Source: Rhizobium sp. Q54 (GTDB lineage: Bacteria; Pseudomonadota; Alphaproteobacteria; SHVZ01). Taken from it: a stretch of DNA of 64,000 bases. The notes below the pieces were generated by a model that did not search any database, was not told the origin of the DNA, and saw only the letters and a program-made list of their open reading frames with translations. The stretch is taken from positions 1-64,000 of the forward strand of contig CAMBVS010000011.1 of the NCBI GenBank assembly GCA_945871425.1, in the 5' to 3' direction. Below, in pieces: positions 1 through 26,391 of this stretch (within the stretch, counting starts at the first letter, position 1; the number at the start of each line of letters is the position of its first letter). The position numbers were made by a program, and so were the translations under genes.

Positions 1-10
1 GTAAGCGGTG

Positions 11-4106: not shown

Positions 4107-4146
4107 AGTCCCAGGCATCGCAGATGGTGCGATATGTGACGTACCC

Positions 4147-5733: not shown

Positions 5734-5771
5734 GTTCTTCTCCGGTCGCGGAAGACTCGAAACACAGCTTT

Positions 5772-8859: not shown

Positions 8860-8864
8860 GGCGG

Positions 8865-9776: not shown

Positions 9777-9785
9777 ACGCGGCCC

Positions 9786-10703
9786 TCACTTGTAGCCGAT
9801 GCGCGGGTCGAGTGCCGCGTAAAGGAGGTCGACGAGCAGATTGACGATCACGAAGATCATCGCGAAGAGGAAGACGACGGCCTGGACCACCGGAAAGTCG
9901 CGGGCATAGATCGCTTGAATCGCGAGGCGCCCCACGCCGGGCCAGGAGAACACCGTCTCGGTGACGATGACGCCGCCCATCAGCAGGCCGACCTGAAGGC
10001 CGATGATCGTCAGAACCGGGATGAAAGCGTTTCGCAGCGCATGCCTCCGGACGACGACGCTCTCGCCGAGTCCTTTGGCGCGGGCTGTGCGGATATAATC
10101 CTGGCCAAGCACGTCGAGCATGCAGGAACGAGTCACGCGGGTGATCAGGGCGACGATGTGGAGGCTGAGCGTTGCCGCCGGCAGCAGCAGCTGTGCCCAA
10201 GTACCTCGTCCGCCTGTCGGCAGCCAGCCGAGCATGACCGCGAAGACGACGATTGAGACGATCCCGAGGTAAAAGGAAGGTATCGCCTGGCCGACCAGCG
10301 TCATCGCGCGAACTACCACGTCCACTACCGTGTTGCGCCAATAGGCGGCGACGACGCCGGCCGGGATGCCGATCCCGATGGCGAGAACCATCGCGGCAAC
10401 CGCGAGTTCGGTCGTTGCCGCCATGCGCTCGGTTACGAGGCTGATGGCCGAAACACCGAATCGCAGGGACTCGCCGAAGTCGCCTTGGAGGGCGTGCCAG
10501 GAGAAGCTGCCGAACTGCACCCACAGCGGGCGGTCGAGCCCGTGTTGCTCACGGAACGATTTGCGCGCGGACTCGGTGGCATCCGGCGGCAGTATCAGGT
10601 CGGTCGGGTCGCCGCTGATATGCGTCAGGATGAAGGAGATGAGCAGTATGCCGAACAGAACTGGCAACGTCAGCAACAGGCGGTTGGCGATGTATTGAGG
10701 CAT
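9786..10703 (-). CDS. Oligo/dipeptide ABC transporter permease, DppB type
   Basis: A 305-residue permease with the DppB N-terminus (MPQYIANRLLLTLPVLFGI), the HISGDPTDL region, six predicted transmembrane segments and the EAA loop (DYIRTARAKGLGES). It pairs with the DppC-like protein to form the channel. A 103-base gap with an inverted repeat separates it from the upstream binding-protein gene. Such an arrangement often lets the binding protein be made in excess. Confidence 0.94.
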   Translation of the reverse strand: MPQYIANRLLLTLPVLFGILLISFILTHISGDPTDLILPPDATESARKSFREQHGLDRPLWVQFGSFSWHALQGDFGESLRFGVSAISLVTERMAATTELAVAAMVLAIGIGIPAGVVAAYWRNTVVDVVVRAMTLVGQAIPSFYLGIVSIVVFAVMLGWLPTGGRGTWAQLLLPAATLSLHIVALITRVTRSCMLDVLGQDYIRTARAKGLGESVVVRRHALRNAFIPVLTIIGLQVGLLMGGVIVTETVFSWPGVGRLAIQAIYARDFPVVQAVVFLFAMIFVIVNLLVDLLYAALDPRIGYK

Positions 10704-10743
10704 CCAAGACCTTTGGCGGTAGCGATGCTACCCTTACGTTCTC

Positions 10744-10769
10744 GCTCCGACCGGCGAACCGCTCGGAGC
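10744..10769 (-). terminator. Intercistronic hairpin between binding-protein and permease genes
   Basis: GCTCCGA (10744-10750) and TCGGAGC (10763-10769) form a perfect 7-bp stem with a 12-base loop. A second small stem (GGTAGC/GCTACC, 10718-10732) follows it. There is no run of T, so a full rho-independent stop is unlikely. It may cause partial termination or protect the binding-protein mRNA. Confidence 0.35.
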
Positions 10770-10806
10770 ATCGGCCTGAGGCGTCGGCGTCACTTCGCTC
10801 CGACGA

Positions 10807-12321
10807 TCATTTGTCGAGCGAGACATTGTAGAAAAAGTACCTGCCGTCTCCGCGCGGATGGAAGTTCTTCAGCTTGGCGTTGACGGCGTAGTGGTCGACG
10901 CCGCCATTGATGAAGCCCACCGGCGCTTGCTCGTAGATCAGGGCGCTGATCTTCCGGTAGATCGCGTCGCGCTTTTTCGGATCCATCTCCACCTTGCCCT
11001 CGTCGATCAGCTTGTCGAGCTCGGCGTCGTTGATGTACGAGTAACGCCAAGTGGAATGATACTGCGACATCATGAAGTGAGAGTCGTCCGGGGGCTGGTT
11101 TCCGCTGATCGCCATCGGGCCGAGTTCGCGAGCGCGCAGCTGACGAAGATACTCGCCGGCCTCGAGGAGCTGGATCTTGGCGGTGATACCAATCGCCCCG
11201 AGCATCCCCGCAACTGCTTCCGCGACTTCCTGACCCTGCTGGATGGAGCCGACCGGAACCTTGAAAGGAACCTGGAACCCGTTCGGATAGCCCGCCTCCG
11301 TCAGGAGTTGCTTGGCTTTCTTCGGATCGTATGGGTAGTCGACGATGTTCGGATCATAGCCGGGCTGAGTCGGGCGCAGCAACTGGCCGTTGAGACGGCG
11401 GGCATTACCGAGGAACAGACCGTCGATAATCCCCTGCTTGTCTATTGCGAAATTAATCGCGTGGCGGACCCGCTTGTCCTGAAGCGGGCTCTTGTGCTGT
11501 TCAAGCGACGAGAGGATGAGATGAACGACCGTGAAAGCATTCACCTCGAGTACTTTTAGGTTGACCCGCTTCCTGAGATCAGCCACCGACGAAATCGGAA
11601 CCTGCTTGGCGATGTCGACTTCCCCCGTGATCGCACCGGCAACGCGCGCGCCGAAATCCGGGACTGACTTGAAAACCAGTTCGTCTATATTCTCCGGCAG
11701 TTTTCCCCAATAGGCATCGTTCCTCTTCAAGACGACCTGAGCGTCACGGACCCAGCTGTGGAACGTGAACGGACCGGTGCCGATTGGCTTGCGGCCGAAC
11801 GCCACGGCACCGCCGACTTCGGTCCAGTACTTCGGCGGGACGACGAAAAACAGACTGAGCGTCAGGCCCATCGGCGGTAGCGGATAGCTGGTATCCACCT
11901 GTACGGTGAGGTTGTCGATCTTGGTGATCTTGGAGAAGCCTTCGAAGTACCGCGTGTAGGCCGGCGTCTGCTTTGGGTCCGTCACGACGTTGTAGCTGAA
12001 GATGACCGCATCGGCGTTCATCGGCTCGCCGTTGGTGAACTTGACGTTGGGCCGGAGCTTAATCGTGATTTGGTTCGGCGAGTCCTGCGTGTAACTTAGG
12101 GCGAGCAGCGGCTTGATCTGATTGTCGCTCGCATCGAGCCAGAACAGCGACTCGACGATCGGCGTCCCGGCATTATAGGTGTCGGCACTCGTCGTGGCGT
12201 TGGGCCACAGCGACTGCGGATCCAGGCTTTGTGCGATCGTCACTCGAGCGGCGGTAGCCGGGCCGGCAATACCCATCGCCACTAGCACCGTCAGTAACAG
12301 CTTGCACAGCGTCGGCTTCAT
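10807..12321 (-). CDS. ABC peptide-type solute-binding protein (SBP_bac_5), exported
   Basis: A 504-residue periplasmic binding protein of the DppA/OppA class. It starts with a clear Sec signal peptide (about 24 residues, ending PATA before ARV). It then has the family blocks IKLRPNVKFTNGEPMNADAV and, further on, AINFAIDKQGI. It is the first gene of the minus-strand operon and faces the divergent regulator at 12473. The ribosome-binding site AGGGAGAG lies just before the ATG. It should deliver peptides or amide-type compounds to the DppBC-like permease. Confidence 0.94.
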   Translation of the reverse strand: MKPTLCKLLLTVLVAMGIAGPATAARVTIAQSLDPQSLWPNATTSADTYNAGTPIVESLFWLDASDNQIKPLLALSYTQDSPNQITIKLRPNVKFTNGEPMNADAVIFSYNVVTDPKQTPAYTRYFEGFSKITKIDNLTVQVDTSYPLPPMGLTLSLFFVVPPKYWTEVGGAVAFGRKPIGTGPFTFHSWVRDAQVVLKRNDAYWGKLPENIDELVFKSVPDFGARVAGAITGEVDIAKQVPISSVADLRKRVNLKVLEVNAFTVVHLILSSLEQHKSPLQDKRVRHAINFAIDKQGIIDGLFLGNARRLNGQLLRPTQPGYDPNIVDYPYDPKKAKQLLTEAGYPNGFQVPFKVPVGSIQQGQEVAEAVAGMLGAIGITAKIQLLEAGEYLRQLRARELGPMAISGNQPPDDSHFMMSQYHSTWRYSYINDAELDKLIDEGKVEMDPKKRDAIYRKISALIYEQAPVGFINGGVDHYAVNAKLKNFHPRGDGRYFFYNVSLDK

Positions 12322-12465
12322 GGTGCTCTCCCTGATAGCGTTAGAGTGGGTTAGGTTTTTCTCGGACGCGATGCGCGTTTCCCGTGGCTAGCGTCGCCCA
12401 TGTCCTCGCGCACGATTCCGAGATCGTTGTCCCTAAGCACTAGCATTATCGGCGACCGGCGGAAT

Positions 12466-12493
12466 TTGCATTATGAAGTTCCACTATTATGAT
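12466..12493 (+). promoter_or_regulatory. Sigma-70-type promoter for the XRE-cupin regulator
   Basis: TTGCAT (12466-12471) and TATGAT (12488-12493) are separated by 16 bases in an AT-rich patch that contrasts with the surrounding sequence. If used, transcription starts around 12500, downstream of the ATG at 12473. The regulator would then have to start further in. Confidence 0.45.
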
Positions 12494-13141
12494 TATCTAG
12501 TCGAGAAAATTTACAGGGAACGCTGTGGTTGCCGCCGTCTCAGCCCAAGGAAGGAAAATCCGCTGAAAAGCACGTTCGATACCGACCTTCAGGTCGGCGA
12601 GCGCATACGACGTCTGCGAAAGGCTCGCAGCAGGTCGCTGAAGGAGGTGGCTCTGCGGTCCGGACTATCCAGCAGTTATCTCAGCCAGTTGGAACGCGGT
12701 CTCTCATCCGCTTCGATACGGGCCCTCGCGCGCCTCGCCGATGCCCTTGATATCGGCATCGCCGAACTCTTCTCGGCGAGCGACCCGCCGTATCCCGACA
12801 GCCCGACCAAGGTCGCGCGCCTCTCGGATCGAAAATTTCTCGAGTTCCCGACAACAGGCATGACCAAGGAGCTTCTGACTCCATTCGACAAATCGCCGCG
12901 CCTTGACATCTACATCCTGACCATTGCCGTCGGCGGCGGGACCGGCGAGTCGCCCTTCATGCATCAGGGTGAGGAGGCCCGCTATGTTCTGGAAGGAGGC
13001 GTCGAACTGACGGTCGACGGGCAGAAGGTTATCCTCGGCGCGGGCGACAGCTTCCGCTTCAGCAGCAACCTTCCCCATGGCTATCGTAATGCCGGAACTA
13101 AGCCTGCCAAGGCCGTGTGGATCAACTACCGCGACAAGTAG
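12473..13141 (+). CDS. XRE-cupin transcriptional regulator
   Basis: The longest reading is 222 residues. A helix-turn-helix of the XRE type occupies about residues 40-95 (VGERIRRLRKARSRSLKEVA, then SGLSSSYLSQLERG), and a cupin_2 effector domain fills residues 145-220 (MHQGEEARYVLEGGVELTVDG). Such regulators often sense small ligands and control adjacent transport or catabolic genes. It is divergent from the dpp-like operon and upstream of the amidase genes. The start is uncertain: the first 30 codons are AT-rich and overlap a promoter-like sequence. An alternative CTG start at 12563 has GGAAGGAAAA seven to ten bases upstream and would give 192 residues. Confidence 0.85.
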   Translation: MKFHYYDYLVEKIYRERCGCRRLSPRKENPLKSTFDTDLQVGERIRRLRKARSRSLKEVALRSGLSSSYLSQLERGLSSASIRALARLADALDIGIAELFSASDPPYPDSPTKVARLSDRKFLEFPTTGMTKELLTPFDKSPRLDIYILTIAVGGGTGESPFMHQGEEARYVLEGGVELTVDGQKVILGAGDSFRFSSNLPHGYRNAGTKPAKAVWINYRDK

Positions 13142-13188
13142 TGAGTGTCATGTGCCCGGGCCGGGATGGCCAAGGGACGGAGAGGCGT

Positions 13189-13416
13189 ATGAGTGCAAGC
13201 CAGGCCGACGACGAAGCGTTCGAAATGCTCATGCGGCGCCACGATATGGACGTCTTGCCAGAAGCCCGCGATGCGGCGCGGCATGTCTTCTCCGACCTGA
13301 CCAGGGCGGTCCGGTTGGTCCGCCAAGAGCGAGCGATGACAAACTCGACCGCTCACGTGTTCTCGCCTGGATGCCTGCTCCGACACCAGCTGAGGCCCGA
13401 TGAAGCCGATACATGA
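13189..13416 (+). CDS. Probable AtzG-like (DUF4089) small amidase subunit
   Basis: A 75-residue protein starting MSASQADDEAFEML, preceded by GGGACGGAGAGG. It is mostly helical and ends in a segment (RAVRLVRQERA, then AHVFSP) that follows the pattern of DUF4089/AtzG proteins, small partners of AtzE-type amidases. It overlaps the start of the downstream amidase by 17 bases, as expected for coupled subunits. This is recognition by pattern and context only. It could instead be an unrelated small protein. In AtzEG the small subunit forms a stable complex with the hydrolase. Confidence 0.55.
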   Translation: MSASQADDEAFEMLMRRHDMDVLPEARDAARHVFSDLTRAVRLVRQERAMTNSTAHVFSPGCLLRHQLRPDEADT

Positions 13417-14833
13417 ACTCACGATAGCCGAAGCAGGCAGTGCTCTGCGATCAGGCGCGGTGACATCAGTCGAGCTCACCGAAGCCGCGTTGGATCGAGT
13501 TGCGGCGCTCGACCCGGCGCTGCACTACTTCTACCTGTTGACGACCGAGCGCGCCCGTAGCGACGCCGCGCGCGCTGACAAGGAACTACGCGCTGGCCAC
13601 GATCGCGGACCTCTTCATGGCATACCATATGGTCTGAAGGACATCCTTGACACCGCCGGGATCCAGACAACCTGTAACTCCAAGCTGCTGCTTGGCCACC
13701 TCCCGGATGAGGACAGCGCCGTCGAAGCGAAGCTGCGCGCCGGTGGCGGCGTGCTCTTGGGAAAGCTCGCCACATCAGAATTCGCGTGTGGCGGACCAGG
13801 CGACGATCTGCCCTACCCGATTTCACGCAACCCCTGGCACCTCGACCACTATACCGGCGGATCCTCGGCCGGCAGCGCAGGCGGCGTCTCGGTCGGCTTC
13901 ATGCGCGCCGCGATCGGCACCGACACGGGAGGTTCGACGCGCGTGCCAGCGCACTATTGCGGCGTCGTCGGGCTGAAGCCGACCTATGGATTGATCTCCA
14001 CCCGCGGTGTTTTTCCGCTTGCGCCTTCGTTCGACCATTGTGCACCGCTCACTCGTAGCGTCCGCGACATGGCCCTGCTGATGAACGTGATTGCAGGATA
14101 TGATCCGCGCGACCCGGCTAGCGTCGATCACCAACGTGAGGACTACACACGCAAGCTGGGCCAAGGAGTCAGGGGCCTTCGAATTGCATATGCCAGGGAG
14201 TACTTAGTTACGGCATCGATATTCCCGGATCTACTGGCTAGCCTCGACAGAGCGGTCGAGATCTTTCGCAACCTCGGAGCCGTCGTCGAGGAAGTCGCCC
14301 TACCCGATTTCGAACTGTTCCGTGCCTGCAGCCGGGTTGTCGTTGCCGCCGAAGCCTTTGCTATCCATGAGGAGACGCTACGCTCCCGTCCGCGTGACTA
14401 TGGCATCCAGACCTATCAGCGACTTGTCGCCGGCACTGCTATCAGCGCCGCTGACCTTGTCCATGCATATGGGCTGAGGCGCGACCTGGTCCTGGCGATC
14501 CGAAACGTTCTCGGGCGCTACGACGCGGCGGTAACGGCCACCGGACTCGGCGAGCCGCCGCTTATCGCGACTCCTAGTCAGCCTTCGCGCATGATCGGTT
14601 CCCCGACTGTCATCTGCAGCCTTACCGGCAATCCCGCGGTATCGGTGCCCATCGGCCTGTCGAGCAAGGGACTTCCTTTCGGCATGCAGATTTTCGCACG
14701 CCATTTCGACGAGGCACGGCTTCTCCAGGTCGCCGCTGCTCTCGAGGAAGCCGTCGGGTTCACCGATTCAGCGGCCGGCATGCCGCCGATCGGTCGCAAT
14801 GTTGCCGCTACGCGAAAATACATCGATGCATGA
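13400..14833 (+). CDS. Amidase-signature hydrolase (GatA/AtzE-like)
   Basis: A 477-residue amidase-signature enzyme with the Ser-cisSer-Lys triad in place: Lys near 80 (GIPYGLKDILD), cis-Ser near 155 (TGGSSAGSAGG) and nucleophile Ser near 179 (GTDTGGSTRVPA). It hydrolyses an amide bond of an unknown substrate in the cytoplasm. The ATG at 13400 overlaps the small AtzG-like gene. With the divergent dpp-like importer and the second M19-like gene downstream, it looks like the intracellular hydrolase of an imported amide or peptide. It is unlikely to be the GatA tRNA amidotransferase subunit, since no gatB or gatC is present. Confidence 0.9.
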   Translation: MKPIHELTIAEAGSALRSGAVTSVELTEAALDRVAALDPALHYFYLLTTERARSDAARADKELRAGHDRGPLHGIPYGLKDILDTAGIQTTCNSKLLLGHLPDEDSAVEAKLRAGGGVLLGKLATSEFACGGPGDDLPYPISRNPWHLDHYTGGSSAGSAGGVSVGFMRAAIGTDTGGSTRVPAHYCGVVGLKPTYGLISTRGVFPLAPSFDHCAPLTRSVRDMALLMNVIAGYDPRDPASVDHQREDYTRKLGQGVRGLRIAYAREYLVTASIFPDLLASLDRAVEIFRNLGAVVEEVALPDFELFRACSRVVVAAEAFAIHEETLRSRPRDYGIQTYQRLVAGTAISAADLVHAYGLRRDLVLAIRNVLGRYDAAVTATGLGEPPLIATPSQPSRMIGSPTVICSLTGNPAVSVPIGLSSKGLPFGMQIFARHFDEARLLQVAAALEEAVGFTDSAAGMPPIGRNVAATRKYIDA

Positions 14834-14858
14834 TCGACCAGACCCTCAGGAGAGCGAA

Positions 14859-15908
14859 ATGGAAAGCAGGCTTACAGACGTCAAAAAACATCCGCTTGAG
14901 AAGGGCTGGCACAGCAAGGCGGTAAACCCCGACATCTTCATCGACGGCTGTACGCAGATTTGGCCCGACGCGGATTTCGCCAAGCTGAACGATTGTGGCG
15001 TAACCGCCTATTGTTTGACCGCCTTCCGCCCCCTTCATCCAGGCGAAGCGGCGATGGATGGTATGGCCGATTGGTGGCGTGTGGCCCGAACCTATCCGGA
15101 AGTGCGCATCGCCCTCAAGGCCGACGACATCGTCGAGGCAAAGAAGCAGAGGCAGGCTGCCCTGATCCTCTCGGCGCAGGGCGGTGACTTCCTTGGTCAG
15201 AACCTCAACCGGCTCGAGATCTTCCACAAGATGGGCTTGAGGGTAATGATCCCCTGCTACAACAGCCGCAACCCGCTTGGCGACGGCGTGATGGAGCCGG
15301 AGAACGGCGGGCTCAGCATGTTGGGCAAGCGCTGGGTCGCCGAGTGCAATCGCCTCGGCATCGTCATCGATCTCGCCCACACAGGCATAAAGTCGTCGAT
15401 GGACGCTATCGAGCTGTCCAAGCATCCGGTCCTCTTCTCGCACGCCAACCCGCGTGCACTCGTCGAGAACAGGCGCAATCTCACCGATGAGCAGATGCGC
15501 GCTTGCGCGAAAACTGGCGGCGTCGTCGGCGTAAGTAATTTTGGCCCGATGCTGTTCCGGCCGGACCAGACGACCAGACCGACGATCGAGCAGTTCCTCG
15601 AAGCTGTCGAGTATGCCGTAAATCTCATCGGTATCGACCATGTCGGCATCGGCACCGACATGAGCCACGGCACGTATCCCGACGGTGACCTCATTCGTAC
15701 CCGCAACGCCGGTGGCGCCCCCCGATACAGCGAGTTCGTCGAGATCAGCTCGCGCTCACGCCTACGGTATGTCCAAGGATTTGACGACTACGGACAGATC
15801 GTCAGCGTCGCCGACCTTTTGACGAAGCGCGGATTCTCCAAGGATGACGTCCGGAAGATCCTTGGCGAAAACTTCCTGCGCGTCTTCCGCCAAGTCTGGG
15901 GCGGTTGA
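14859..15908 (+). CDS. Membrane-dipeptidase-like protein (M19 fold), second non-canonical copy
   Basis: A 349-residue protein homologous in layout to the 7858-8859 product. His in DLAHTGI, His in FSHANPRALV and Asp in GIGTDMSHG are kept. The N-terminal HxD is replaced by IDGCTQIWPD and the bridging Glu by Gln (LILSAQGGD). The start MESRLTD at 14859 is preceded by AGGAGAG; an earlier in-frame ATG at 14799 would overlap the amidase gene. It is the last gene of the regulator-amidase transcript. Two divergent copies in one locus suggest successive or different substrates. Confidence 0.85.
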   Translation: MESRLTDVKKHPLEKGWHSKAVNPDIFIDGCTQIWPDADFAKLNDCGVTAYCLTAFRPLHPGEAAMDGMADWWRVARTYPEVRIALKADDIVEAKKQRQAALILSAQGGDFLGQNLNRLEIFHKMGLRVMIPCYNSRNPLGDGVMEPENGGLSMLGKRWVAECNRLGIVIDLAHTGIKSSMDAIELSKHPVLFSHANPRALVENRRNLTDEQMRACAKTGGVVGVSNFGPMLFRPDQTTRPTIEQFLEAVEYAVNLIGIDHVGIGTDMSHGTYPDGDLIRTRNAGGAPRYSEFVEISSRSRLRYVQGFDDYGQIVSVADLLTKRGFSKDDVRKILGENFLRVFRQVWGG

Positions 15909-15914
15909 ACCAGA

Positions 15915-15981
15915 TTAGACCTGCGCCAGTGGGAGCGCGCCCGGCGAAGCTGGCCCGGATTGCGAAGGCGGGCGCGCTCCC
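15915..15981 (-). repeat. Inverted IS3 3'-end remnant, forming a 13-bp-stem palindrome
   Basis: Read on the minus strand, 15978 to 15915 encodes ARPPSQSGPASPGALPLAQV and a stop. This closely matches the C-terminus of the intact IS3 OrfB (ARPPSQPGPATSGALPLVPK). The same bases form a perfect 13-bp stem (15931-15943 with 15969-15981), so the structure could also act as a terminator for the dipeptidase-like gene ending at 15908. It is in the opposite orientation to the remnant at 4042. Confidence 0.7.
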
Positions 15982-16008
15982 GCTAGCGCAGACGCTAGTT
16001 CCAAACTA
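15969..16008 (+). repeat. IS3 right-end fragment, forward orientation, interrupted by IS630
   Basis: From CGGGCGCGCTCCCGCT to CCAAACTA the sequence matches the 4042 remnant (TCCCGCTGGCGCAGACGCTA and CCAAACTA) and the end of the intact IS3. It stops at a TA dinucleotide (16007-16008), where the IS630 element begins, which fits the TA target of that family. Confidence 0.65.
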
Positions 16009-17110
16009 GTGTCCTGATTCAGAAGTTTTGATGATTTTCGCTTGGTTGTCGGCGATTTTTTAGAGTGGCGAGGCAGAAGCGCTTTATCGACGCGAGGATG
16101 TCGTCAGCGGACCTGGTCCATTTGAACGGCTTGGGGTCGTCGTTGACGATCTTTATCTAGTCTTGGATCGCTCGTTTGAGCTGGCGGGTCGAGCGGTGGA
16201 CGCCGCGGCGGATTTGCTTTTCGGTGAGGTTGGCAAAGAACCGCTCGACCTGGTTGATCCATGACGCCGAGGTCGGGGTGAAGTGGACATGCCAGAGAGG
16301 ATGCCTAGCCAGCCATCGGCGGATTGCCGGAGTTTTGTGGGTGGCGTAATTGTCAATCACGAGGTGGACGTCGAGATCGGTCGGGACGTTGTTTTCGATT
16401 TCGCGCAAGAACTTGAGAAACTCGCGTCCACGATGGCGCGCGAAGCATCTTCCGATCACCTTTCCCGTCGCCGCATCGAGGGCGGCGAACAAGGACAGAG
16501 TTCCGTGGCGGGTATAGTCATGGCTACGCCGCTCGACCTGTCCGGGCCGCATCGGCAGCAGAGGCTGGGTGCGGTCGAGCGCCTGGATCTGGCTCTTCTC
16601 GTCGACGCAGAGCACCAAGGCCCGCTCAGGGGGCGCCATGTAGAGCCCGACGATGTCCCTCACCTTCTCGACGAAGAGCGGATCCTTCGAAAGCTTGAAT
16701 GTCTCCACCCGGTGCGGCTGCAGCCCGAACGCCTGCCAGATCCGGTGGATCGTCGAGGGCGCATGACCCGCCGCCGCAGCCATCGATCGTAGCGACCAGT
16801 GGGTCGCACCTCGCGGCGTCGTCTCCAGCGTTAGCCGGATCGTCTCGGCGATCTCGTCATCGCCGATCTGCTGCGGCGCGCCGGGGCGCGGTTCATCCAA
16901 AAGCCCGTCGACCCGGCGCTCGGCGAACCGCCGGCGCTACTTGCCGACCGTGTTCACGTCGGCGCCGATCCTCCGGGCGATCATCTGGTTTTCCTCGCCG
17001 TCGGCCGCAGCCAGCACAATCCGAGCCCGCCGCGCCAGTCCCTGTGCTGTCCGACGACGCCCGGCCAGACCCTCAAGTTCCGTCCGCTCCGAAGCCGTCA
17101 ACATGATTGG
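16009..17110 (-). mobile_element. IS630-family insertion sequence, degenerate
   Basis: The left end begins after a TA at 16007-16008 with GTGTCCTGATTCAGAAG. The element contains a single minus-strand transposase gene carrying two amber codons. I could not find a matching inverted repeat beyond the transposase start (17104), so the right boundary is approximate and that end may be lost or diverged. Confidence 0.75.
16019..17104 (-). pseudogene. IS630 transposase with two internal amber codons
   Basis: Reading from ATG at 17104 to TGA at 16019 gives 361 codons, the usual IS630 length. The frame is interrupted by TAG at 16937-16939 (VGK-stop-RRRF, where Trp would fit) and TAG at 16157-16159 (AIQD-stop-IKIVND, where Trp would fit). 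The helix-turn-helix start (MLTASERTELEGLAGRRRTA) lies before the first stop. The DDE residues are in the central part: [18 protein letters not shown] and [10 protein letters not shown]. Both lesions fit TGG to TAG changes. The central 247-residue frame alone would lack the DNA-binding N-terminus. Confidence 0.88.
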
Positions 17111-17288
17111 CCTGTCGGAAAGTGACGAAGCCGCTACTCACTCAGTCGGCGACCCGAGCGTCGGAAAGCGTTCCGCGGGCTTCGGCCGATGTGGGAACCC
17201 CGTGCCCCACCGGGCCGCCATCATAGAGTGCTGCCATGCTATTGCGAGCTGGGCACAGCTGGCGGTAGGAGTCGCCAGCGCGTTGCCT

Positions 17289-17525
17289 CTATGGTCGCTG
17301 AACACGCCTAAGCATCTTGGCCGCGTCGAAACCGATCGCCTTTGCGAGGTCGAGAAACTCGACCACGTCGAGGCGGCGCTCGCCGCCCTCATACTTCGCG
17401 ATGAAGGATTGGGGTTTGCCAAGTCGCTTGGCGACGTCGGCTTGGGTGAGCTCCGCCGTCAGGCGCGCCTCTATCAAAAGGGTCCGCAAGCGTTCTTGAC
17501 GGGGCGATCGAAGGGACTTCGCCAT
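17289..17525 (-). CDS. Small XRE-family DNA-binding protein
   Basis: A 78-residue single-domain protein starting MAKSLRSPRQERLRTLL. Its helix-turn-helix spans about residues 25-65 (LTQADVAKRLGKPQSFIAKY then EGGERRLDVVEFLDLAKAIG). The start at 17525 was chosen because the domain begins there; the frame is open for 67 more codons upstream, but those do not resemble a protein. It is divergent from the unknown gene at 17678, with a perfect palindrome between them, so it probably represses itself and that neighbour. Confidence 0.8.
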   Translation of the reverse strand: MAKSLRSPRQERLRTLLIEARLTAELTQADVAKRLGKPQSFIAKYEGGERRLDVVEFLDLAKAIGFDAAKMLRRVQRP

Positions 17526-17595
17526 GGACGAGGCGCCGCGCTCTTGTGTCGGCACCTCTGTTAGTGGTGCTTTTATTTTATCCCAAAAAAGGATA

Positions 17596-17611
17596 TTGGC
17601 AACGCTGCCAA
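17596..17611. promoter_or_regulatory. Candidate operator for the small XRE protein
   Basis: TTGGCA (17596-17601) and TGCCAA (17606-17611) are a perfect inverted repeat with a 4-base spacer. They lie between the divergent starts at 17525 and 17678, in a locally AT-richer stretch. The geometry suits an XRE dimer. Confidence 0.45.
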
Positions 17612-17677
17612 AGTGCGAATGCACTGGGCGGACGCTTGAAACAGGATTCAAAGTTAGCGGCGGAGGCGCGTCAAGCC

Positions 17678-18418
17678 ATGACCGTTGAAGTTTCGAACGA
17701 TCCCAATGGGGCGTTGTCGCATTCACCGAAGGACCGAGTGCCTCTCGCCGAGGTGATGTCGGCTTTGGACGTGGTCCGGGTCGCCGACGATGCTCGGATA
17801 GCCGATGTGATCGCGCAACGGCAGGGACTAATCAATCTCCCAACCGCAATCCCTGGCATCGTCTCCACGAATCCGAAATTGATCATGGCGGCATTCGCCG
17901 CTGCCTTCTGTGCCGGCGAGAGGTTGACGCATCTTGGCCCAGTCGACCTCGGTGGCGACACGATCATCTTCGGTGTGACCCGATCAGCGCTCAAGGCTGC
18001 GGAGACGCATTCCCTTGGCGAACCGAACGAAGATTTGTCGGGCCACTTCAGCAGAGCCCGGTTGGCTCGAGATCTCGTGGTGGATTGGGCGGTGTCCGGC
18101 CCACCTGCGCAATCCGCCCGCGTTCGCCAGCAAAGGATCATTGGATGGCTTCGGCCGATCAAGGAGCGGATCGGCCCGACAGTCGCCGTCGAATTGGTTG
18201 ACCGGATCTGGGCATACGAGGGTGGACGATGGACGCGCGAGAAAGGGGCAACCTACGTAGACCATGAATGCCATGCTGTTATCGTTCTTTCGATGGAGTT
18301 CATCGACGACCTCGAATACGTCCTCTATCGCGAGATGCACGTCGCCCATCGCGCCGATGGCCGCATCACGGATGATGAATGGGCCGCCCTCAAGGCGTGG
18401 GCAGGTGTCGGTCCGTAG
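17678..18418 (+). CDS. Hypothetical protein, divergent from XRE regulator
   Basis: A protein of 246 residues that I do not recognise. The start at 17678 (MTVEVSNDPNG) has GGAGG about twelve bases upstream; a longer frame from 17546 is open but would cover the intergenic palindrome. No signal peptide or membrane segment is evident. The C-terminal part (AHRADGRITDDEWAALKAWA) is acidic and helical. A small XRE gene divergent from a larger gene is seen in mobile elements and some toxin-antitoxin or phage modules, but nothing here proves that role. Confidence 0.65.
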   Translation: MTVEVSNDPNGALSHSPKDRVPLAEVMSALDVVRVADDARIADVIAQRQGLINLPTAIPGIVSTNPKLIMAAFAAAFCAGERLTHLGPVDLGGDTIIFGVTRSALKAAETHSLGEPNEDLSGHFSRARLARDLVVDWAVSGPPAQSARVRQQRIIGWLRPIKERIGPTVAVELVDRIWAYEGGRWTREKGATYVDHECHAVIVLSMEFIDDLEYVLYREMHVAHRADGRITDDEWAALKAWAGVGP

Positions 18419-18757
18419 CCATGAGCCCCGGAGACGGCGCGGACTGCATCGGTGGCTTCGGTCGTCGTGCGAGCCGGTGACAGTCATCATTTCAGGCTTC
18501 GTCGGGTCATGGGCGATCGCCTTGGTAGCGACTAGAGAAGATCACCGGGACCGCCACCTACTGCTGGGATGCGCGCCTGTCGTCGCGTTACGAACAAGAT
18601 CGGAGAGGTGTCTATGCAGGCCACAGACAGATATATACGCGGCGGCGCATATTTTCTTTGTATTCGCCGATCAGTATATTGACTGAATATGCTGTTAGGC
18701 GTATAAAACTGCTGTATACTCTATCACGTATGAACCCGGCCCACCCGGAGCCTCTCC
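18419..18757. other. Intergenic region holding the hipBA control sequences
   Basis: No convincing gene is seen between the unknown ORF and hipB. The right half is AT-rich and contains the promoter and inverted repeats listed separately. An ATG at 18730 opens the hipA frame across hipB, but this is only an open shadow frame. Confidence 0.6.
18676..18719 (+). promoter_or_regulatory. hipBA promoter with two candidate HipB operators
   Basis: TTGACT (18679-18684), a 17-base spacer and TATAAA (18702-18707) form a near-consensus sigma-70 promoter. One inverted repeat ATATT-5-AATAT (18676-18690) covers the -35 box. Another, GTATA-9-TATAC (18701-18719), covers the -10 box. Operators overlapping both boxes fit autorepression by HipB. 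Confidence 0.55.
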
Positions 18758-19009
18758 ATGGACCAGATCGTCCGCACGCCCCACCAGATGGGGTCGGCTC
18801 TCCGCCGTATCCGCCGCCAACGGGGCCTGAGCCAGGGCGAGCTCGCCGCCCGCGCGCATCTCCGGCAGGCGACGATCTCCGAGTTCGAGGCCGGAAAAGG
18901 CTCGACCCGCCTCGACACCATCATCGCCATCATGGTCGCCCTCGACCTCGAGATGGTCGTCCGGCCGCGGACCACCAGCGCGCCCGAAGACATTGGGAAG
19001 GCCTACTGA
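18758..19009 (+). CDS. hipB: HipB-type antitoxin, XRE DNA-binding
   Basis: An 83-residue protein with an XRE helix-turn-helix (GSALRRIRRQRGLSQGELAA, then LRQATISEFEAGKGSTRLDT) and the short C-terminal strand typical of HipB. It binds its own promoter and inactivates HipA. Its TGA overlaps the hipA ATG by one base (19009), ensuring coupled translation. Confidence 0.92.
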   Translation: MDQIVRTPHQMGSALRRIRRQRGLSQGELAARAHLRQATISEFEAGKGSTRLDTIIAIMVALDLEMVVRPRTTSAPEDIGKAY

Positions 19010-20331
19010 TGCCCCGTCGGCCCCGTCACGCTCCGCTCAAGGTCTGCCTCAACGGCCGCCTGGTCGGTCACCTCCGTCGCCAGGCGAGCGGTGCCATCGA
19101 CTTCCGCTACGATCCGGACTGGCTCGCCTGGGAGCATGCGCTCCCGGTCTCCTTCTCGCTCCCGCTCCGCGAAGACCGCTACATCGGCGCGCCGGTGATC
19201 GCGGTCTTCGACAACCTGCTTCCCGACAACGACAGGATCCGCCAGCGCATGGCTGAGCGGATGCACGCGGATGGCACCGACGCCTACAGCCTGCTCTTGG
19301 CCGCCGGCCGGGACTGCGTGGGTGCGTTGCAGTTCCTGCCAGCCGATCTCGATCCGGGACCGACAGGCGCAATCGACGGCACACCCGTCAGCGAGGAGGA
19401 GATCGGGACTCTTCTCGACAATCTCGCCGGAACTCCGCTCGGTCTCAGCGAGAGCGACGACTTCCGGATCTCGATCGCCGGCGCGCAGGAGAAGACGGCC
19501 TTGCTGCGCGTCGACGGTCGCTGGCTGAAGCCGCGCGGGACGACGGCGACGACGCATATCCTGAAGCCGCCGATCGGCCCGACCAAGGGACATCCCGATC
19601 TCTCGGACAGCGTCGAGAACGAATGGCTCAGCCTCGCGCTCGTCAGGGCCATGGGGCTGCCGGCGGCGGAGGCGGAGATGGCTGATTTCGCCGGCCGAAA
19701 GGCGCTCGTTGTCGAGCGATTCGACCGCCTATGGACCGACGAGACCCCCAGTCGGCTACTGAGATTGCCGCAGGAGGATTGCTGCCAGGCGCTCGGCGTT
19801 CCGCCGACGGCGAAGTACGAATCCGAGGGCGGGCCAGGTATCGGGCGGATCCTCGAGCTACTTAGAGCCAGCGACCGTCCGGCCGAAGACTGCAAAGTCT
19901 TCCTCAAGACCCAGATCGTCTTCTGGCTCATGGCCGCGCCCGATGGGCATGCCAAGAACTTCAGCCTGCTGCTCTCGGCCGGCGGCCGCTTCCACCTGGC
20001 GCCGCTCTACGACGTGATGTCGGCCGAGTCCTATGCGAGATCGAGGCAGCTCGATGGACGAAAGCTCAAGCTCTCCATGGCCGTCGGCGACAACAGGCAC
20101 TACGAAATCGAGGAGATCGCGCCGAGACACTTCATCCAGACCGGCGTCAGGTACGGGCTCGCCAAGACGCAAGTGGAGGAGATCCTGGACGAAGTCGGAA
20201 AGGCAGCACTTAAGGCGATTGATACGGTGATGGCCGCCTTGCCGGCGTCGGTGCCGGCGAGCACGGCCGAGCCGATCATCGAGGGCATGCGGAAGCGGCT
20301 GACGCTGATCGAAGGGCGTTCCAAAGTCTAA
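19009..20331 (+). CDS. hipA: HipA-type serine/threonine kinase toxin
   Basis: 440 residues, close to the length of E. coli HipA. The couple_hipA domain is at the N-terminus (VCLNGRLVGHL). The regulatory Ser near 155 in the Gly-rich loop (ISIAGAQEK), catalytic Asp near 312 (PDGHAKNFS) and metal-binding Asp near 335 (APLYDVMSAESY) are all present, so the kinase should be active. In studied systems HipA phosphorylates GltX (glutamyl-tRNA synthetase) and induces growth arrest; whether this copy targets GltX is not known. It lies inside the island, 450 bases from the integrases, and may help maintain the element. Confidence 0.93.
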   Translation: MPRRPRHAPLKVCLNGRLVGHLRRQASGAIDFRYDPDWLAWEHALPVSFSLPLREDRYIGAPVIAVFDNLLPDNDRIRQRMAERMHADGTDAYSLLLAAGRDCVGALQFLPADLDPGPTGAIDGTPVSEEEIGTLLDNLAGTPLGLSESDDFRISIAGAQEKTALLRVDGRWLKPRGTTATTHILKPPIGPTKGHPDLSDSVENEWLSLALVRAMGLPAAEAEMADFAGRKALVVERFDRLWTDETPSRLLRLPQEDCCQALGVPPTAKYESEGGPGIGRILELLRASDRPAEDCKVFLKTQIVFWLMAAPDGHAKNFSLLLSAGGRFHLAPLYDVMSAESYARSRQLDGRKLKLSMAVGDNRHYEIEEIAPRHFIQTGVRYGLAKTQVEEILDEVGKAALKAIDTVMAALPASVPASTAEPIIEGMRKRLTLIEGRSKV

Positions 20332-20779
20332 TCCACCCGAACCCTGTCAATCCGCGGCCGGATCTTGTTCCACGGCCGCAAATGCGTTAGTCGAAAGACG
20401 GCAGCCTGAGACCCGGAAAGCGAGCCGGTGGGGTTCTCCGCGGCGATGTCGCGAGGATCAATAGATGCGGGTGATACGCGGCCCGCCAGGCCGCCGCGCT
20501 CTCGCCCCGTTGAGTACTCTAATCTCGGTTGTCAAGCCCTCACTCGTTCTTCGCGGGCCTTGACGTCGAGTTGGGTCGAGGCGAGCCCATCAGAGCCAAG
20601 AAGAGAGAGGCGGGCGGCCCGCAGGGCGAGTTATGAGAAAAAATCTGCCTCAGGATGCCGACCCTGCACCAAAAGTGAGCCAGAGCCCCAGTTCGATGCC
20701 GAATTACACCGATTGGCGACAATCTTAGTCGTCGATTGATGACATTCGGTAAAGTCGCCGAACGGCGACATATCCCGGG
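20332..20779. other. Intergenic region between hipA and the integrase genes
   Basis: About 450 bases with no convincing gene on either strand. Apart from the hairpin after hipA I see nothing I can name. The part near 20660-20740 is less GC-rich and might be old mobile-element debris, but I cannot match it to anything in the window. Confidence 0.5.
20354..20379 (+). terminator. Possible terminator downstream of hipA
   Basis: GCGGCCG (20354-20360) and CGGCCGC (20373-20379) form a perfect 7-bp GC stem with a 12-base loop, 23 bases after the hipA stop. There is no T-tract, so termination strength is uncertain. Confidence 0.35.
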
Positions 20780-22012
20780 CTATTCTTTGGAATTCCAGCA
20801 GAATACGGCCCATTCCTGCATCATTTCGATCCGTTTGCCGAAGAGATCGCCTCGCCTGTAGGCACGCTCGACCCCGCTAGGTATGACGTGCGCAAGGGCC
20901 ATTTCGGCCACTTCCGGCGGGTAGCTCGTCCGCTCCGCGGCCCAGTCCCGGAAGGTCGACCGGAAGCCATGCGGCGTCAGGTCCGGTCGTTCCATCCGGT
21001 GAAGCAGGGCCCGAAACGCGTTCTCGCTGAGAGGTCGGCCGCGACGGCCGCCCGGGAAGAGGTAATCGTCGGATAACGGTGCGGCCTCGTCGACGAGCTG
21101 GAGCGCACGATCCGACAACGGCACGCGATGCTCACGGCCCGCCTTGATGCGTTCCGGCGGGATCGTCCACACCGAGGTCTGGCGATTGATCTCGCTGTCC
21201 GTCGCGCCTGTGACTTCGCTCGTACGCGCCGCCGTCAGGATGAGGAACTCGAGGGCTCGCGCGACAATCCCATCCTGCGCGCGGAGTTCGACCATGAAGG
21301 CGCCGACTTCGTCGATAGGCAGCGCCGGATGATGCCGGACTTTGGCAACCCGGCTCCGCGCCGGCAGAAGCTTGTCGAGTGTACCTTTCCATCTTGCGGG
21401 ATTTGGTCCCTCCCGGAGGCCGCGCACCTGCGCCCAGTCGAGAACTGCCTCGATACGGCCGCGAACCCGCATCGCCGTTTCGGTCTTGGCATACCAGATC
21501 GGTCGCAGCGCCTTGTCCACGAGGTTCACATCGATCACGTGGACGGGGAGGGCGCCCAGTACCGGATATGCATAGGCCTCGAGCGTCGAACTCCATTGTT
21601 CATGATGCTTCTCGCTTCGCCATCCGGGATGATGGGCTTCGACATAGGCAGCGGCACAGTCGCGAAAAGCCATCGCCCTCGCTGCTTCCGAGACGCGTTG
21701 CGCTCGCGCGCTACGGCGTGCCTCGATCGGATCGACGCCGTCGAGCAGCTGCCCGCGGGCAGTTCGCGCCTTGTCGCGCGCTTCGGCCAGGCTCACCGTA
21801 TGAAGCGGGCCTAGACCCATGTCGCGGGGCGTCTTCCGCCCGTTCAGCCGGTATCGGAAGATCCAAGATCGGCCGCCTGCATTCGAAACCTGAAGATACA
21901 GACCATCGCCGTCGGCGTAGAGGCCTGGCTCCGTCAGCCGGCCCACCGCGAGGGCGCTGAGACGGCCAATGGTTCGCCGTTCTCTACGCTTGAAGCTCAG
22001 AACGGTGGTCAT
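20780..22012 (-). CDS. Tyrosine recombinase/integrase (P4 type, DUF4102 arm-binding domain)
   Basis: 410 residues. The N-terminal DUF4102 domain (about 15-100, LTEPGLYADGDGLYLQVSNA) is typical of island and P4-phage integrases. The catalytic domain has Arg in TAARTSEVTG, H348 and R351 in HGFRSTFR, H375 in ALAHVIPSG and the nucleophile Tyr near 385 in AYRRGD. It overlaps the stop of the upstream integrase by four bases. It should catalyse integration into and excision from the tRNA-Glu site at 23472-23515. Confidence 0.93.
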   Translation of the reverse strand: MTTVLSFKRRERRTIGRLSALAVGRLTEPGLYADGDGLYLQVSNAGGRSWIFRYRLNGRKTPRDMGLGPLHTVSLAEARDKARTARGQLLDGVDPIEARRSARAQRVSEAARAMAFRDCAAAYVEAHHPGWRSEKHHEQWSSTLEAYAYPVLGALPVHVIDVNLVDKALRPIWYAKTETAMRVRGRIEAVLDWAQVRGLREGPNPARWKGTLDKLLPARSRVAKVRHHPALPIDEVGAFMVELRAQDGIVARALEFLILTAARTSEVTGATDSEINRQTSVWTIPPERIKAGREHRVPLSDRALQLVDEAAPLSDDYLFPGGRRGRPLSENAFRALLHRMERPDLTPHGFRSTFRDWAAERTSYPPEVAEMALAHVIPSGVERAYRRGDLFGKRIEMMQEWAVFCWNSKE

Positions 22013-23325
22013 TTTCCCGGACCTGAGTTTTCTGGGCAGCCCGCCTTCAGATCGAGAACGGGTGCGTCGTTCGCGAGCGAGAAGCCGAGCCTAGGCAGGT
22101 TGCTCCGGATTTCCTCGTCGACATAGCTCTGCGCCAGATGGGCGTAGTGCTTTTCGGTGATCCGCGTATCTGAGTGTCCGAGCTGGCTGGCGATGACGCC
22201 GAGAGACACGCGACGCATGGCCAGCCACGACGCATGTGTGTGCCGAAGCAGATGAAAATGCGCCGGCGGTTCGATGCTGGCGCGTGCGGAGGCCTCGCGC
22301 ATGAGCCGTTGCTGATGGTTCTTACCCCAGGCGCTGCCGTCGGGCCGGCAGAAGGCCAATGACTCTCTCGGGCGGCCCAATGTCACCGCATCGAACACGC
22401 CGAGGCCCTCGTCGCTGAGGCGGACATGGCGCGCCTTACCGCCTTTGCCGTTTCGGACGAAGACCTTCTTGGCCGCGAGGCTGTAGTCGCCGCAGCGGAT
22501 ACCGGCGAGCTCCTGATACCGGCATCCGGTCATGATCGCGGCGTAGATAAGCCGCTGGAAGGCAGCGTCTGTCACGTGCAGGAGCCGCAGCACCTCTTCC
22601 TCGCTTAGAAAGCGGACGATCGCGACATCGACCCGCGGGAACGGCCGGACTTTGCGCCAAGCGATATCGGAGGCGACCTGGTTCTCGCGGAAGGCATGGT
22701 TCAGGAGCGCCTTGAGCACGGTGAGCTTGTGGTTCGCCGTGACCTTGCGTCGTCGCAGCGCCTCTGCCGGATCGAAATGGGGCTTGCGGGCCTTCGGCTT
22801 CTCGCCTTGCTTCGCGCGGAGCGGGACCGGCGCAAAGGCGAGGTTCTGATGCCAGTCTCGGATGCGGCGGGTGGTGAGCTTCGCCACCTCGATAGTGCCG
22901 AGCGCCGGCACGATGTCGCGATCGATGATGCGGCGGAACTCGTCGATCGCCCGGCCGCGTGCCCGGAAGTCGGCGAAGTAGTCTTCGGCCGCGTCCTGGA
23001 CGGTGAGAAGCCGCCTCGGGCCTTGCCCGGCATCGGCGAGGGCGAGCTGCGCAAGCCAGCTCCGGGCCCGTTCCTGCGCCTGATCGAAAGAGAGCGTGCG
23101 GACGCCATCGGCGTCGGCGATGTCGTCGGCGACGCCGAGCGGCTCGAACCGGCGGCCGACCGCGCTGTCATAGGCGCGCGCGATCCATGTACCGCCCTTC
23201 GCTCCCTTGCGATAGCCGACGACCAAGCCCTTCTGGATTCCTTTCCAGTAGGGATCCCGTCGCGCCTTGAGCTTGAGGCGCGACGTCCTGGTTTCGAGAC
23301 GCGTGTCACGGACGGTCCGAGCCAA
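22009..23325 (-). CDS. Second tyrosine recombinase/phage-type integrase
   Basis: 438 residues. It has a SAM-like core-binding domain (about 105-210), Arg in MTGCRYQELAGI, HLLRHTHASWL (His/Arg) and the nucleophile Tyr in ITEKHYAHL. The start at 23325 is a TTG preceded by GGAGCGGAGC; no better ATG precedes it. The next integrase follows with a four-base overlap, so the two are made together. It differs clearly from its partner in domain layout (no DUF4102), so this is not a recent duplication. It lies 146 bases from the tRNA-Glu fragment. Confidence 0.92.
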   Translation of the reverse strand: MARTVRDTRLETRTSRLKLKARRDPYWKGIQKGLVVGYRKGAKGGTWIARAYDSAVGRRFEPLGVADDIADADGVRTLSFDQAQERARSWLAQLALADAGQGPRRLLTVQDAAEDYFADFRARGRAIDEFRRIIDRDIVPALGTIEVAKLTTRRIRDWHQNLAFAPVPLRAKQGEKPKARKPHFDPAEALRRRKVTANHKLTVLKALLNHAFRENQVASDIAWRKVRPFPRVDVAIVRFLSEEEVLRLLHVTDAAFQRLIYAAIMTGCRYQELAGIRCGDYSLAAKKVFVRNGKGGKARHVRLSDEGLGVFDAVTLGRPRESLAFCRPDGSAWGKNHQQRLMREASARASIEPPAHFHLLRHTHASWLAMRRVSLGVIASQLGHSDTRITEKHYAHLAQSYVDEEIRSNLPRLGFSLANDAPVLDLKAGCPENSGPGK

Positions 23326-23471
23326 GCTCCGCTCCGAAAACGTACGTCAAAAAGCTGACGGGTCTGTTGCAAAAACCTGAGTCTGAGCTTGGAGCGCGGC
23401 TCTCAAAAAGTCAATAAAATCGCATAAACTTCAACGAACTATGGCGAACTTCGGCGGACGCGTGCTAACAT

Positions 23472-23515
23472 CTTTCACGTTGGTAACACGGGTTCGAATC
23501 CCGTTGGGGACGCCA
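23472..23515 (+). other. tRNA-Glu 3' fragment: attachment site at the island edge
   Basis: The 44 bases comprise an anticodon loop CTTTCAC (anticodon TTC, Glu), the 3' anticodon stem, variable loop, a complete T arm around GGTTCGAATCC, the 3' acceptor strand TGGGGAC, discriminator G and encoded CCA. The 5' half is absent: no complementary GTCCCCA acceptor strand is found upstream, and the bases before the loop do not pair with GTTGG. A 3' tRNA fragment next to integrase genes is the classic mark of an att site duplicated by site-specific integration. The chromosome continues to the right. Confidence 0.85.
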
Positions 23516-23543
23516 GCACCTTGCATGTTCACACCGACTGGTC

Positions 23544-24959
23544 ATGTCGTACCCGATGAGCCGGTCGCCGCAGCCCCCCGTTCCTGATCGCGCGGCGCCG
23601 GCCGAAACCTTTATCCGGGCAATCTGGAGCGGGCTCGGCGGGGACGACTCCGCCCTGGCTGCGGTTCGGATGGCGGGGGTCGGCAACTTGCCCTCGGCCT
23701 TCGCCGTCAGCGATCTTGCCGTCGCCTCCGTTGCTGCCGCCGGCCTGGCCGTCGCGGAGCTGGGATCCGCTCGCTTCGGCGAGATGACCGAGGTCCGGGC
23801 CGACCGTCGGCTCGCCTCGCTCTGGTTTTCGCGGACGCTGCAGCCGCAGGGTTGGTCGATGCCCCCCGTCTGGGACCCGATCGCCGGCGACTACGCGGCG
23901 GCCGACGGGTGGATCAGGCTCCATACCAATGCGCCGCATCATCGGGACGCGGCGCTCGCGGTCCTGGGCGCGGCCAACGACAAGGCCGCCGTCGCGGCGG
24001 CCGTCTCGCGATGGACTGCGGACGATCTCGAGGCCGCGGTGGTCGAACGCGGAGGATGCGCCGCGGCGATGCGCTCGCTCTCAGCCTGGGCCGATCACCC
24101 GCAGGGGCGGAGCGTGGCCGCCGAGCCTCTGCTGCGGGTCGAGACCACCGACGTCTCCCGCAGTCAGCCACGGTCGATGTCGCGCGGACGGCCGCTCGCC
24201 GGCGTGCGCGTCCTCGACCTGACCCGGGTGCTGGCCGGCCCGGTGGCGACACGCTTCCTCGCCGGCCTCGGCGCCGATGTGCTGCGGATCGATCCGCCCT
24301 GGTGGGACGAGCCGTCGATCGTTCCGGATGTGGTGCCGGGCAAACGCTGCGCCCGGCTCGACCTGCGCCTGGCGGAGGATCGCCAGCGACTGACCGCGCT
24401 CATCGCCGAGGCCGACATCCTCGTCCATGGCTACCGGCCGGGCGCACTCGCGCGCCTGGGGCTGGACGCAGAGGCACGGCGTCGCCTGCGTCCGGGGCTC
24501 GTGGATGTTTCGCTCGATGCCTATGGCTGGACCGGACCCTGGCAGGGGCGGCGGGGCTTCGACAGCCTGGTCCAGATGAGCGCCGGCATCGCCGCCGAAG
24601 GCATGCGCCGCTTCGGCACCGACAGGCCGAAGCCGCTGCCGGTGCAGGCGCTGGACCATGCCACTGGCTACATGATGGCGGCCGCCGCGATCCGCGGGCT
24701 GATGCGCCGGATGACGTCGGGCGTCGGGTCCGAGACCCGGACATCGCTCGCACGCACCGCCGGCCTTCTCGCTTCGGTTGCGGCGCCGGACCAACCTGGC
24801 GAACTGGGCGAGGCGGATCCCGCGGACTACGGCAATGCGATCGAGGCGACGGACTGGGGGCCGGCGCTTCGCCTGCGCCCACCACTCGCGATCGACGGCG
24901 TCACCATTGCCTGGGATCGCCCGGCGGCGACGCTCGGATCGTCGCTGCCGCGCTGGTAG
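23544..24959 (+). CDS. CaiB/BaiF class III CoA-transferase family protein
   Basis: 471 residues. The recognisable CoA-transferase III core starts near residue 215 (LAGVRVLDLTRVLAGPVATR) and contains GLGADVLRIDPP, RLDLRLAEDRQRL and GLVDVSLDAYGWTGPW. The first 200 residues resemble the second lobe of the same fold (LHTNAPHHRDAALAVLGAAN), giving a permuted or two-lobed layout seen in some family members. It transfers or activates CoA esters of an unknown acid. It is the first backbone gene, starting 28 bases after the tRNA fragment with no clear ribosome-binding site, so island insertion may have changed its upstream control. Confidence 0.85.
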   Translation: MSYPMSRSPQPPVPDRAAPAETFIRAIWSGLGGDDSALAAVRMAGVGNLPSAFAVSDLAVASVAAAGLAVAELGSARFGEMTEVRADRRLASLWFSRTLQPQGWSMPPVWDPIAGDYAAADGWIRLHTNAPHHRDAALAVLGAANDKAAVAAAVSRWTADDLEAAVVERGGCAAAMRSLSAWADHPQGRSVAAEPLLRVETTDVSRSQPRSMSRGRPLAGVRVLDLTRVLAGPVATRFLAGLGADVLRIDPPWWDEPSIVPDVVPGKRCARLDLRLAEDRQRLTALIAEADILVHGYRPGALARLGLDAEARRRLRPGLVDVSLDAYGWTGPWQGRRGFDSLVQMSAGIAAEGMRRFGTDRPKPLPVQALDHATGYMMAAAAIRGLMRRMTSGVGSETRTSLARTAGLLASVAAPDQPGELGEADPADYGNAIEATDWGPALRLRPPLAIDGVTIAWDRPAATLGSSLPRW

Positions 24960-25518: not shown

Positions 25519-26391
25519 GTGGAGCATGTTGTCTGCGAGTTTGACGTGTCCGAGAGGCGGGCGTGCCGGGTTCTGGGTCAGCACCGCTCTACCCAGCGCA
25601 AGGTTCCGAGGAAGGCCGATGACGAGGCGGCTCTGACCGCTGAGATCATCGCTCACGCCCGCCAGTACGGCCGCTATGGCTACCGCCGGATCACGGCGCT
25701 TTTGCGCCGAGATGGCTGGGCGGTGAACAAGAAGCGGGTCGAGCGGATCTGGCGGCGCGAGGGGCTTAAGGTGCCGTCAAAGCAGCCCAAGCGGGGGCGG
25801 CTCTGGTTCAACGAAGGGTCATGCGTCCGTCTGCGACCCGAGCACCCCAATCATGTCTGGTCCTATGATTTCGTCGCGGATCGTACCCATGAGGGCAAGG
25901 CGGTCCGGATGCTGTGCATCATCGATGAGTTCACCCGCGAGGCCCTAACGATCAGAGTGGCTAGGGCATTCAAGGCGACCGATGTCATCGACGCTCTCGC
26001 CGATCTCTTCATCGTGCGCGGCGTGCCTGCTCACATTCTCTCCGACAATGGACCGGAGTTCGTTGCCCGAGCTCTCCGAGACTGGATCGCGGCCGTAGGC
26101 GCGAAGACCGCCTACATCGAGCCGGGCAGCCCCTGGGAGAACGGCTACTGCGAAAGCTTCAACGGCAAGCTCCGCGATGAGCTGCTCAATGGCGAGATCT
26201 TCTACACGCTGAGGGAGGCGAAGACCGTGATCGAAGCATGGCGGCACCATTACAACACCGTCCGCCCACACACTTCGCTCGGATATCGGCCGCCAGCACC
26301 GGAGGTCTTCATCCCCGCGCGCCCGCCTTCGCAACCTGGGCCAGCTACGTCGGGCGCGCTCCCGCTGGTGCCCAAGCCAGCTCTAAACTAA
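25519..26391 (+). CDS. IS3 transposase OrfB (rve integrase core)
   Basis: 290 residues from the internal ATG; the functional product is probably the OrfAB frameshift fusion. It has the HTH_21 segment (HARQYGRYGYRRITALLRR) and an integrase core with D117 (WSYDFVAD), D176 (LSDNGPEF) and E212 (NGYCESFNGKLRDE), the DD35E spacing. The C-terminus ends ALPLVPKPALN; the corresponding segment can be recognised in the remnant at 15915. No lesion is seen. Confidence 0.94.
   Translation: MEHVVCEFDVSERRACRVLGQHRSTQRKVPRKADDEAALTAEIIAHARQYGRYGYRRITALLRRDGWAVNKKRVERIWRREGLKVPSKQPKRGRLWFNEGSCVRLRPEHPNHVWSYDFVADRTHEGKAVRMLCIIDEFTREALTIRVARAFKATDVIDALADLFIVRGVPAHILSDNGPEFVARALRDWIAAVGAKTAYIEPGSPWENGYCESFNGKLRDELLNGEIFYTLREAKTVIEAWRHHYNTVRPHTSLGYRPPAPEVFIPARPPSQPGPATSGALPLVPKPALN

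Follow-up and report, generated by a model that had tools for sequence, protein, structure and literature searches.

A displaced tRNA-Glu 3′ fragment beside two overlapping integrase genes as the very probable end of a genomic island

What does a piece of tRNA gene deprived of its 5′ half signify when it lies next to two integrase genes, and on which side of it does the host chromosome begin? Here, we addressed this question for the window, i.e., the whole 64,000-nucleotide stretch that was analysed, corresponding to bases 1–64000 of contig C11 (77,827 bp) in a draft genome (G000) of 3.56 Mb, 100 contigs and 82.8% completeness. The full explanation that we consider very probable is that the locus represents one end of a genomic island, the end bearing the integrases, and that this island is inserted in the tRNA-Glu(TTC) gene of the host. 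As an island end in a tRNA gene, it is ordinary and of a known type; what is mildly odd about it is that one operon at the island edge contains two different integrase genes. Features composing this edge are the following:

23544–24959, + strand: class III CoA-transferase gene (CoA_transf_3, 1.5e-46), opening the host (3′) flank 23516–24959
23472–23515, + strand: tRNA-Glu(TTC) 3′ fragment from the anticodon loop to CCA, displaced half of the att site, CTTTCACGTTGGTAACACGGGTTCGAATCCCGTTGGGGACGCCA
23326–23471: spacer of 146 bases between the fragment and the Int1 start
22009–23325, − strand: Int1, tyrosine recombinase of 438 aa with TTG start (Pfam Phage_integrase, 4.9e-24)
20780–22012, − strand: Int2, P4-type tyrosine recombinase of 410 aa (Arm-DNA-bind_3, Phage_int_M, Phage_integrase)

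The earlier note had described a 44-base fragment without a 5′ half situated 146 bases from a pair of integrase genes, and this description proved exact in each part. The fragment occupies 23472–23515, its 5′ half is absent, and all 44 bases coincide with the 3′ part of the intact tRNA-Glu(TTC) of congeners G002, G004 and G005, the homologous gene of G006 (another genus of the same family) matching at 42/44 positions; an exact 44-mer is expected in the window by chance with a value of ~4e-22. Allowing up to three mismatches, it is the sole copy of this core in the draft genome. Identity with congeners extends as far as the 5′ edge of the anticodon loop and no further, and a block of identity between window and relatives starting from this loop points to attachment at the anticodon-loop subsite (subsite A). 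The gap of 146 bases is measured to the Int1 start codon at 23325 and contains two 11-base direct repeats, CAAAAAGCTGA (23348–23358) and CAAAAACCTGA (23370–23380), 22 bases apart and matching at 10/11 positions. They are candidate arm-type integrase sites, and repeats of 11-base pitch recur at the corresponding spacer position in relatives of Int1.

Both integrases retain recognizable domains and the complete catalytic set, R269, K294, H358, R361, H384 and Y394 in Int1 and R263, K290, H348, R351, H375 and Y385 in Int2, which, judged by the R-K-H-R-H/W-Y signature, assigns the two products to tyrosine recombinases. The start codon of Int2 overlaps the stop codon of Int1 by four bases (ATGA), and the genes are most likely translationally coupled and co-expressed.

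According to the proposed scenario, Int1 would recombine the 44-base core of a circular element with the identical core in the host tRNA gene, so that at the far end the tRNA gene would be completed by the element-borne 3′ part, whereas the 3′ part native to the host would be displaced to 23472–23515, where it would persist as a dead fragment beside the host flank. To the left of 23471, the element would take in the int operon, hipA, the peptide genes and a number of insertion sequences (ISs) before leaving the window at base 1, with the entire 1–23471 region being a single element and the intact tRNA-Glu lying at its unseen left end.

Comparison with congeners supports this arrangement from both sides. 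In G002, G004, G005 and G006, tRNA-Glu is intact, Int1 is not found nearby, and the 5′ flank is conserved over 4–5.7 kb at 74–86% identity, comprising ompA, hom (homoserine dehydrogenase), glpX and recJ; in the window, the int operon stands 5′ of the fragment in place of ompA-hom-glpX-recJ. The target site is occupied here and intact in relatives free of this element. In G004, the intact tRNA-Glu precedes DNA of the window’s right flank, with 83% identity over 1553 bp in the CoA-transferase region, 89–92% over 10 kb beyond it, and collinear blocks, mostly of 87–92%, reaching 39 kb. The anticipation that in relatives tRNA-Glu would be followed directly by the CoA-transferase gene is therefore borne out for G004 in a loose sense: an IS3-like element together with other sequence (~2.4 kb) separates the two genes, and the other congeners lack the CoA-transferase. 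G004 alone among the congeners compared has the window’s right flank beside tRNA-Glu, and the CoA-transferase occurs at high identity in one congener only. An IS3-type transposase gene (rve, HTH_21) is also present in the right host flank of the window, at 25519–26391, between blocks conserved in G004.

In G002, a multihaem cytochrome-type gene follows tRNA-Glu. In G005 (L063:426-8271), AbiEi/AbiEii genes, a gene for an HTH protein of 1352 aa and an integrase gene unmatched by the Int1 search are located there, possibly constituting another element at the same site. Given these other genes after tRNA-Glu in G002 and G005, the site appears to be a hot spot.

Left of the fragment the picture is different. 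Non-conservation of the left genes in relatives, implied by the earlier note, is confirmed for 4074–20770, where no ortholog-level match was found in G001–G006; the matches that do occur, paralogs of common ABC-transporter genes and a single hipA, reach ~70% and 70% identity, respectively, as against 81–92% identity of the right flank to congeners. The GC fraction is 0.60–0.63 over most of the left part versus 0.66–0.70 on the right. Fixing one precise end of the element makes it possible to tell its cargo, peptide uptake and HipA, from host genes. The left part includes:

18658–20331, + strand: HipA-like kinase toxin gene, island cargo (HipA_C, 9.1e-52; Couple_hipA, 1.6e-26)
16157–16900, − strand: DDE_3 transposase (domain match), IS630-like, probably partial
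4147–15908: peptide uptake and degradation cargo, composed of the genes named below
2629–4044, + strand: IS256/Mutator-type insertion sequence (Transposase_mut) with 31-base terminal inverted repeats
1–2468, − strand: IS66-family insertion sequence, whole, with both termini, its base 1 being the contig start
11–1588, − strand: IS66 transposase (NF033517, 1.2e-144)

The peptide locus encodes two SBP_bac_5 binding proteins, two oligopeptide ABC ATPases, a permease, an amidase, two M19 dipeptidases and an HTH-cupin regulator. The genes of the M19 membrane dipeptidases (7858–9534 and 14799–15908) are oppositely oriented and have in common an inverted 86-base stretch of 73% identity. The entire locus is flanked by a 33-base direct repeat (31/33 identical) at 4041–4073 and 15977–16009, which could be a relic of the insertion of the peptide block. 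The IS256/Mutator transposase (2785–3983) is split into two overlapping frames, its Pfam match missing ~45 middle positions, and is probably inactive. As for the hipBA pair proposed previously, hipA is supported by both of its domains, and no HipB was recognized beside it by Pfam or PADLOC, the neighboring stretch 18264–18686 having no family match. No relaxase or mating-pair gene was detected among the main genes in the 23.4 kb of the element that are visible, and no gene for capsid, terminase, portal or satellite replication in this same part.

The left boundary of the contig is set by the IS66 copy, which starts with GTAAGCG at base 1 and ends with CGCTTAC at 2468. Since the window opens with the first base of this multi-copy element, the assembly broke at a repeat, and the island, if it is one piece, is at least 23.5 kb long. 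A second copy of the IS66 end closes contig C21, whose last 148 bases equal window positions 1–148, i.e., merely the IS66 end. C21 is unsupported as the left neighbor: its eight flanking bases, CGAGTACC, differ from GCCTTCTG following the IS66 terminus at 2468, so that the end of C21 probably derives from another IS66 copy. Among 21 tRNAs recognized in the draft genome there is no tRNA-Glu, no intact tRNA-Glu was found elsewhere in this 82.8% complete assembly, and ARAGORN reports no complete tRNA in the window. A search of the same assembly for the hom-glpX-recJ flank also gave no result, and the missing contig therefore cannot be joined. With both intact tRNA-Glu and the conserved 5′ flank absent from the draft genome, reconstitution of the tRNA gene at this locus is something we infer. 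Ten of the 21 tRNA genes lie less than 800 bases from a contig end (C2, C4, C5, C31, C39, C53, C75, C79, C84 and C86 of G000), ~1 being expected (binomial p ~7e-9), which suggests that the assembly is interrupted by variable insertions at tRNA genes.

The abundance of ISs raises the question whether the left part is one element at all, as they could have joined unrelated DNA to it. The fragment might be what remains of an old integration, and the left part a mosaic built by IS66, IS256 and IS630-like elements, only the few kilobases closest to int belonging to the element in the strict sense. The coincidence of an IS66 terminus with the contig start, the location of IS256 and of the DDE_3 transposase between cargo blocks, and the direct repeat around the peptide locus (4041–4073/15977–16009) speak for such a history. 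Nevertheless, catalytic residues are intact in Int1 and Int2, the 44-base core shows no damage, the peptide genes lack ortholog-level matches in congeners, as fits cargo, and ISs commonly occur within elements; hence we regard the mosaic as unlikely, albeit deserving consideration.

The island reading gains further ground from the behavior of the Int1 family. In a set of 15 loci with Int1 relatives (~35% identity or more), 11 have the tRNA-Glu 3′ core 136–215 bases from the int start, and 7 of these 11 contain a second copy of the core on the same contig, thereby delimiting whole elements:

10.0 kb: G388, lichen MAG of Acidobacteriaceae (L136, ~9808–19886)
18.6 kb: G357
21.8 kb: G172
22.8 kb: G153
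50.2 kb: Rhodoblastus sp. 17X3
54.9 kb: G057
64.2 kb: Xanthobacter sp. YC-JY1

Each of the seven is bounded by the intact tRNA on one side and by the fragment, in matching orientation, on the other, and their core identity begins 0–4 bases before the anticodon loop and runs to CCA (plus 0–5 bases). The integrase resides at the fragment end in six of them, like in the window, and at the intact end in G057. Element-specific paired 22-base repeats of 11-base pitch are found at both ends of five elements, with 19–21 of 22 positions matching between the two ends (mismatched pairs give a mean of 14.4/22), as expected of arm-type integrase sites. The integrase is the only gene common to all elements, their cargo comprising genes of phages and satellites (terminase, capsid, portal, VapE and Prim-Pol) and elsewhere restriction-modification genes. 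The 10 kb Acidobacteriaceae element has genes for capsid, terminase and primase-polymerase and resembles a phage satellite able to form capsids; the 22.8 kb element of G153, another class member, encodes an FtsZ-family protein (L207:6481-7857, + strand; Tubulin, 2e-46; FtsZ_C, 6.6e-37). In phage and plasmid records, matches to Int1 are distant or partial only, the best (40%) being from a Sphingomonas plasmid. The locus also defines the Int1 family, for which the anticodon-loop half of tRNA-Glu serves as target in phages, satellites and islands alike and which helps to find whole elements in other genomes.

From these data, Int1 rather than the Int1–Int2 pair is likely to be the enzyme serving the tRNA-Glu site. 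That Int2 instead made the insertion is highly improbable: it is indeed intact and of P4 type, typical users of tRNA genes, yet relatives of Int1 occupy tRNA-Glu without any Int2. Every intact tRNA gene adjoining an Int2 relative is a tRNA-Ser gene (in 10 of the 29 genome loci and in two viral contigs), a count confined to relatives with an intact neighboring tRNA, as many others have no tRNA adjacent; among the adjacent intact tRNAs in the 29 genome loci and the viral contigs, no tRNA-Glu was met. A search for a tRNA-Ser fragment in the window returned nothing beyond 13–14 T-arm bases that these tRNAs have in common, located within the Glu fragment itself. No Int1 was found beside any of 109 Int2 relatives (80 viral contigs and 29 genome loci), and no Int2 beside any of the 15 Int1 relatives; in the titles and abstracts retrieved on coupled integrase pairs in islands, this arrangement has no counterpart. 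The most likely origin of Int2 is capture, by the Int1 element, of a second integrase from a tRNA-Ser-using family. That the pair, with integrases of two families and different targets (tRNA-Glu and tRNA-Ser), would let one island use chromosomal sites of both kinds, or that Int2 would assist excision by Int1, is a tentative suggestion that we find rather improbable; Int2 may also be a passenger, and the coupled pair is a small oddity open to testing.

The inverse topology, with the element right of the fragment and host DNA on the left, could appeal to the presence of the CoA-transferase at high identity in just one congener and deserves next to no credence, being opposed by the rule that a 3′ fragment has the element 5′ of it (PMC4383910), the layout of 7/7 bounded relatives, the right-flank DNA after the intact tRNA in G004, the host GC of the right flank, and the lack of a further tRNA-Glu 3′ copy in the draft genome (up to three mismatches). 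That the element lies 5′ of the fragment, as stated in the earlier note, is thereby upheld by the G004 right flank and the seven bounded elements, and the main interpretation of that note is well supported.

Three known systems offer a frame for this locus. With the P4-type tRNA-Ser integrases, at most 61% identical to Int2, the window has in common the Arm-DNA-bind_3/Phage_int_M/Phage_integrase layout; in those having a neighboring tRNA, the tRNA-Ser 3′ end precedes the integrase by ~150–210 bases, a place taken in the window by Int1. Elements of the Int1 family resemble it in the integrase itself (42–48% identical, 36% for Rhodoblastus), the corresponding 44-base core and the spacing, and differ in that their cargo is unrelated and that Int1 stands there without an adjacent Int2. 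Among islands catalogued by Islander, in which two classes were counted, the anticodon subsite is the more frequent class, and the 3′ fragment denotes the end distal to the intact tRNA, which puts the element 5′ of the fragment (PMC4383910). The present locus departs from those islands in having the intact tRNA end outside the assembly and two overlapping integrase genes instead of one. It shares with the subsite A islands of this collection (PMC4383910) the identity from the anticodon loop to the 3′ end and a tRNA intact in relatives, and it carries two of the marks of Islander islands, the displaced 3′ fragment and a tyrosine integrase gene inside the island.
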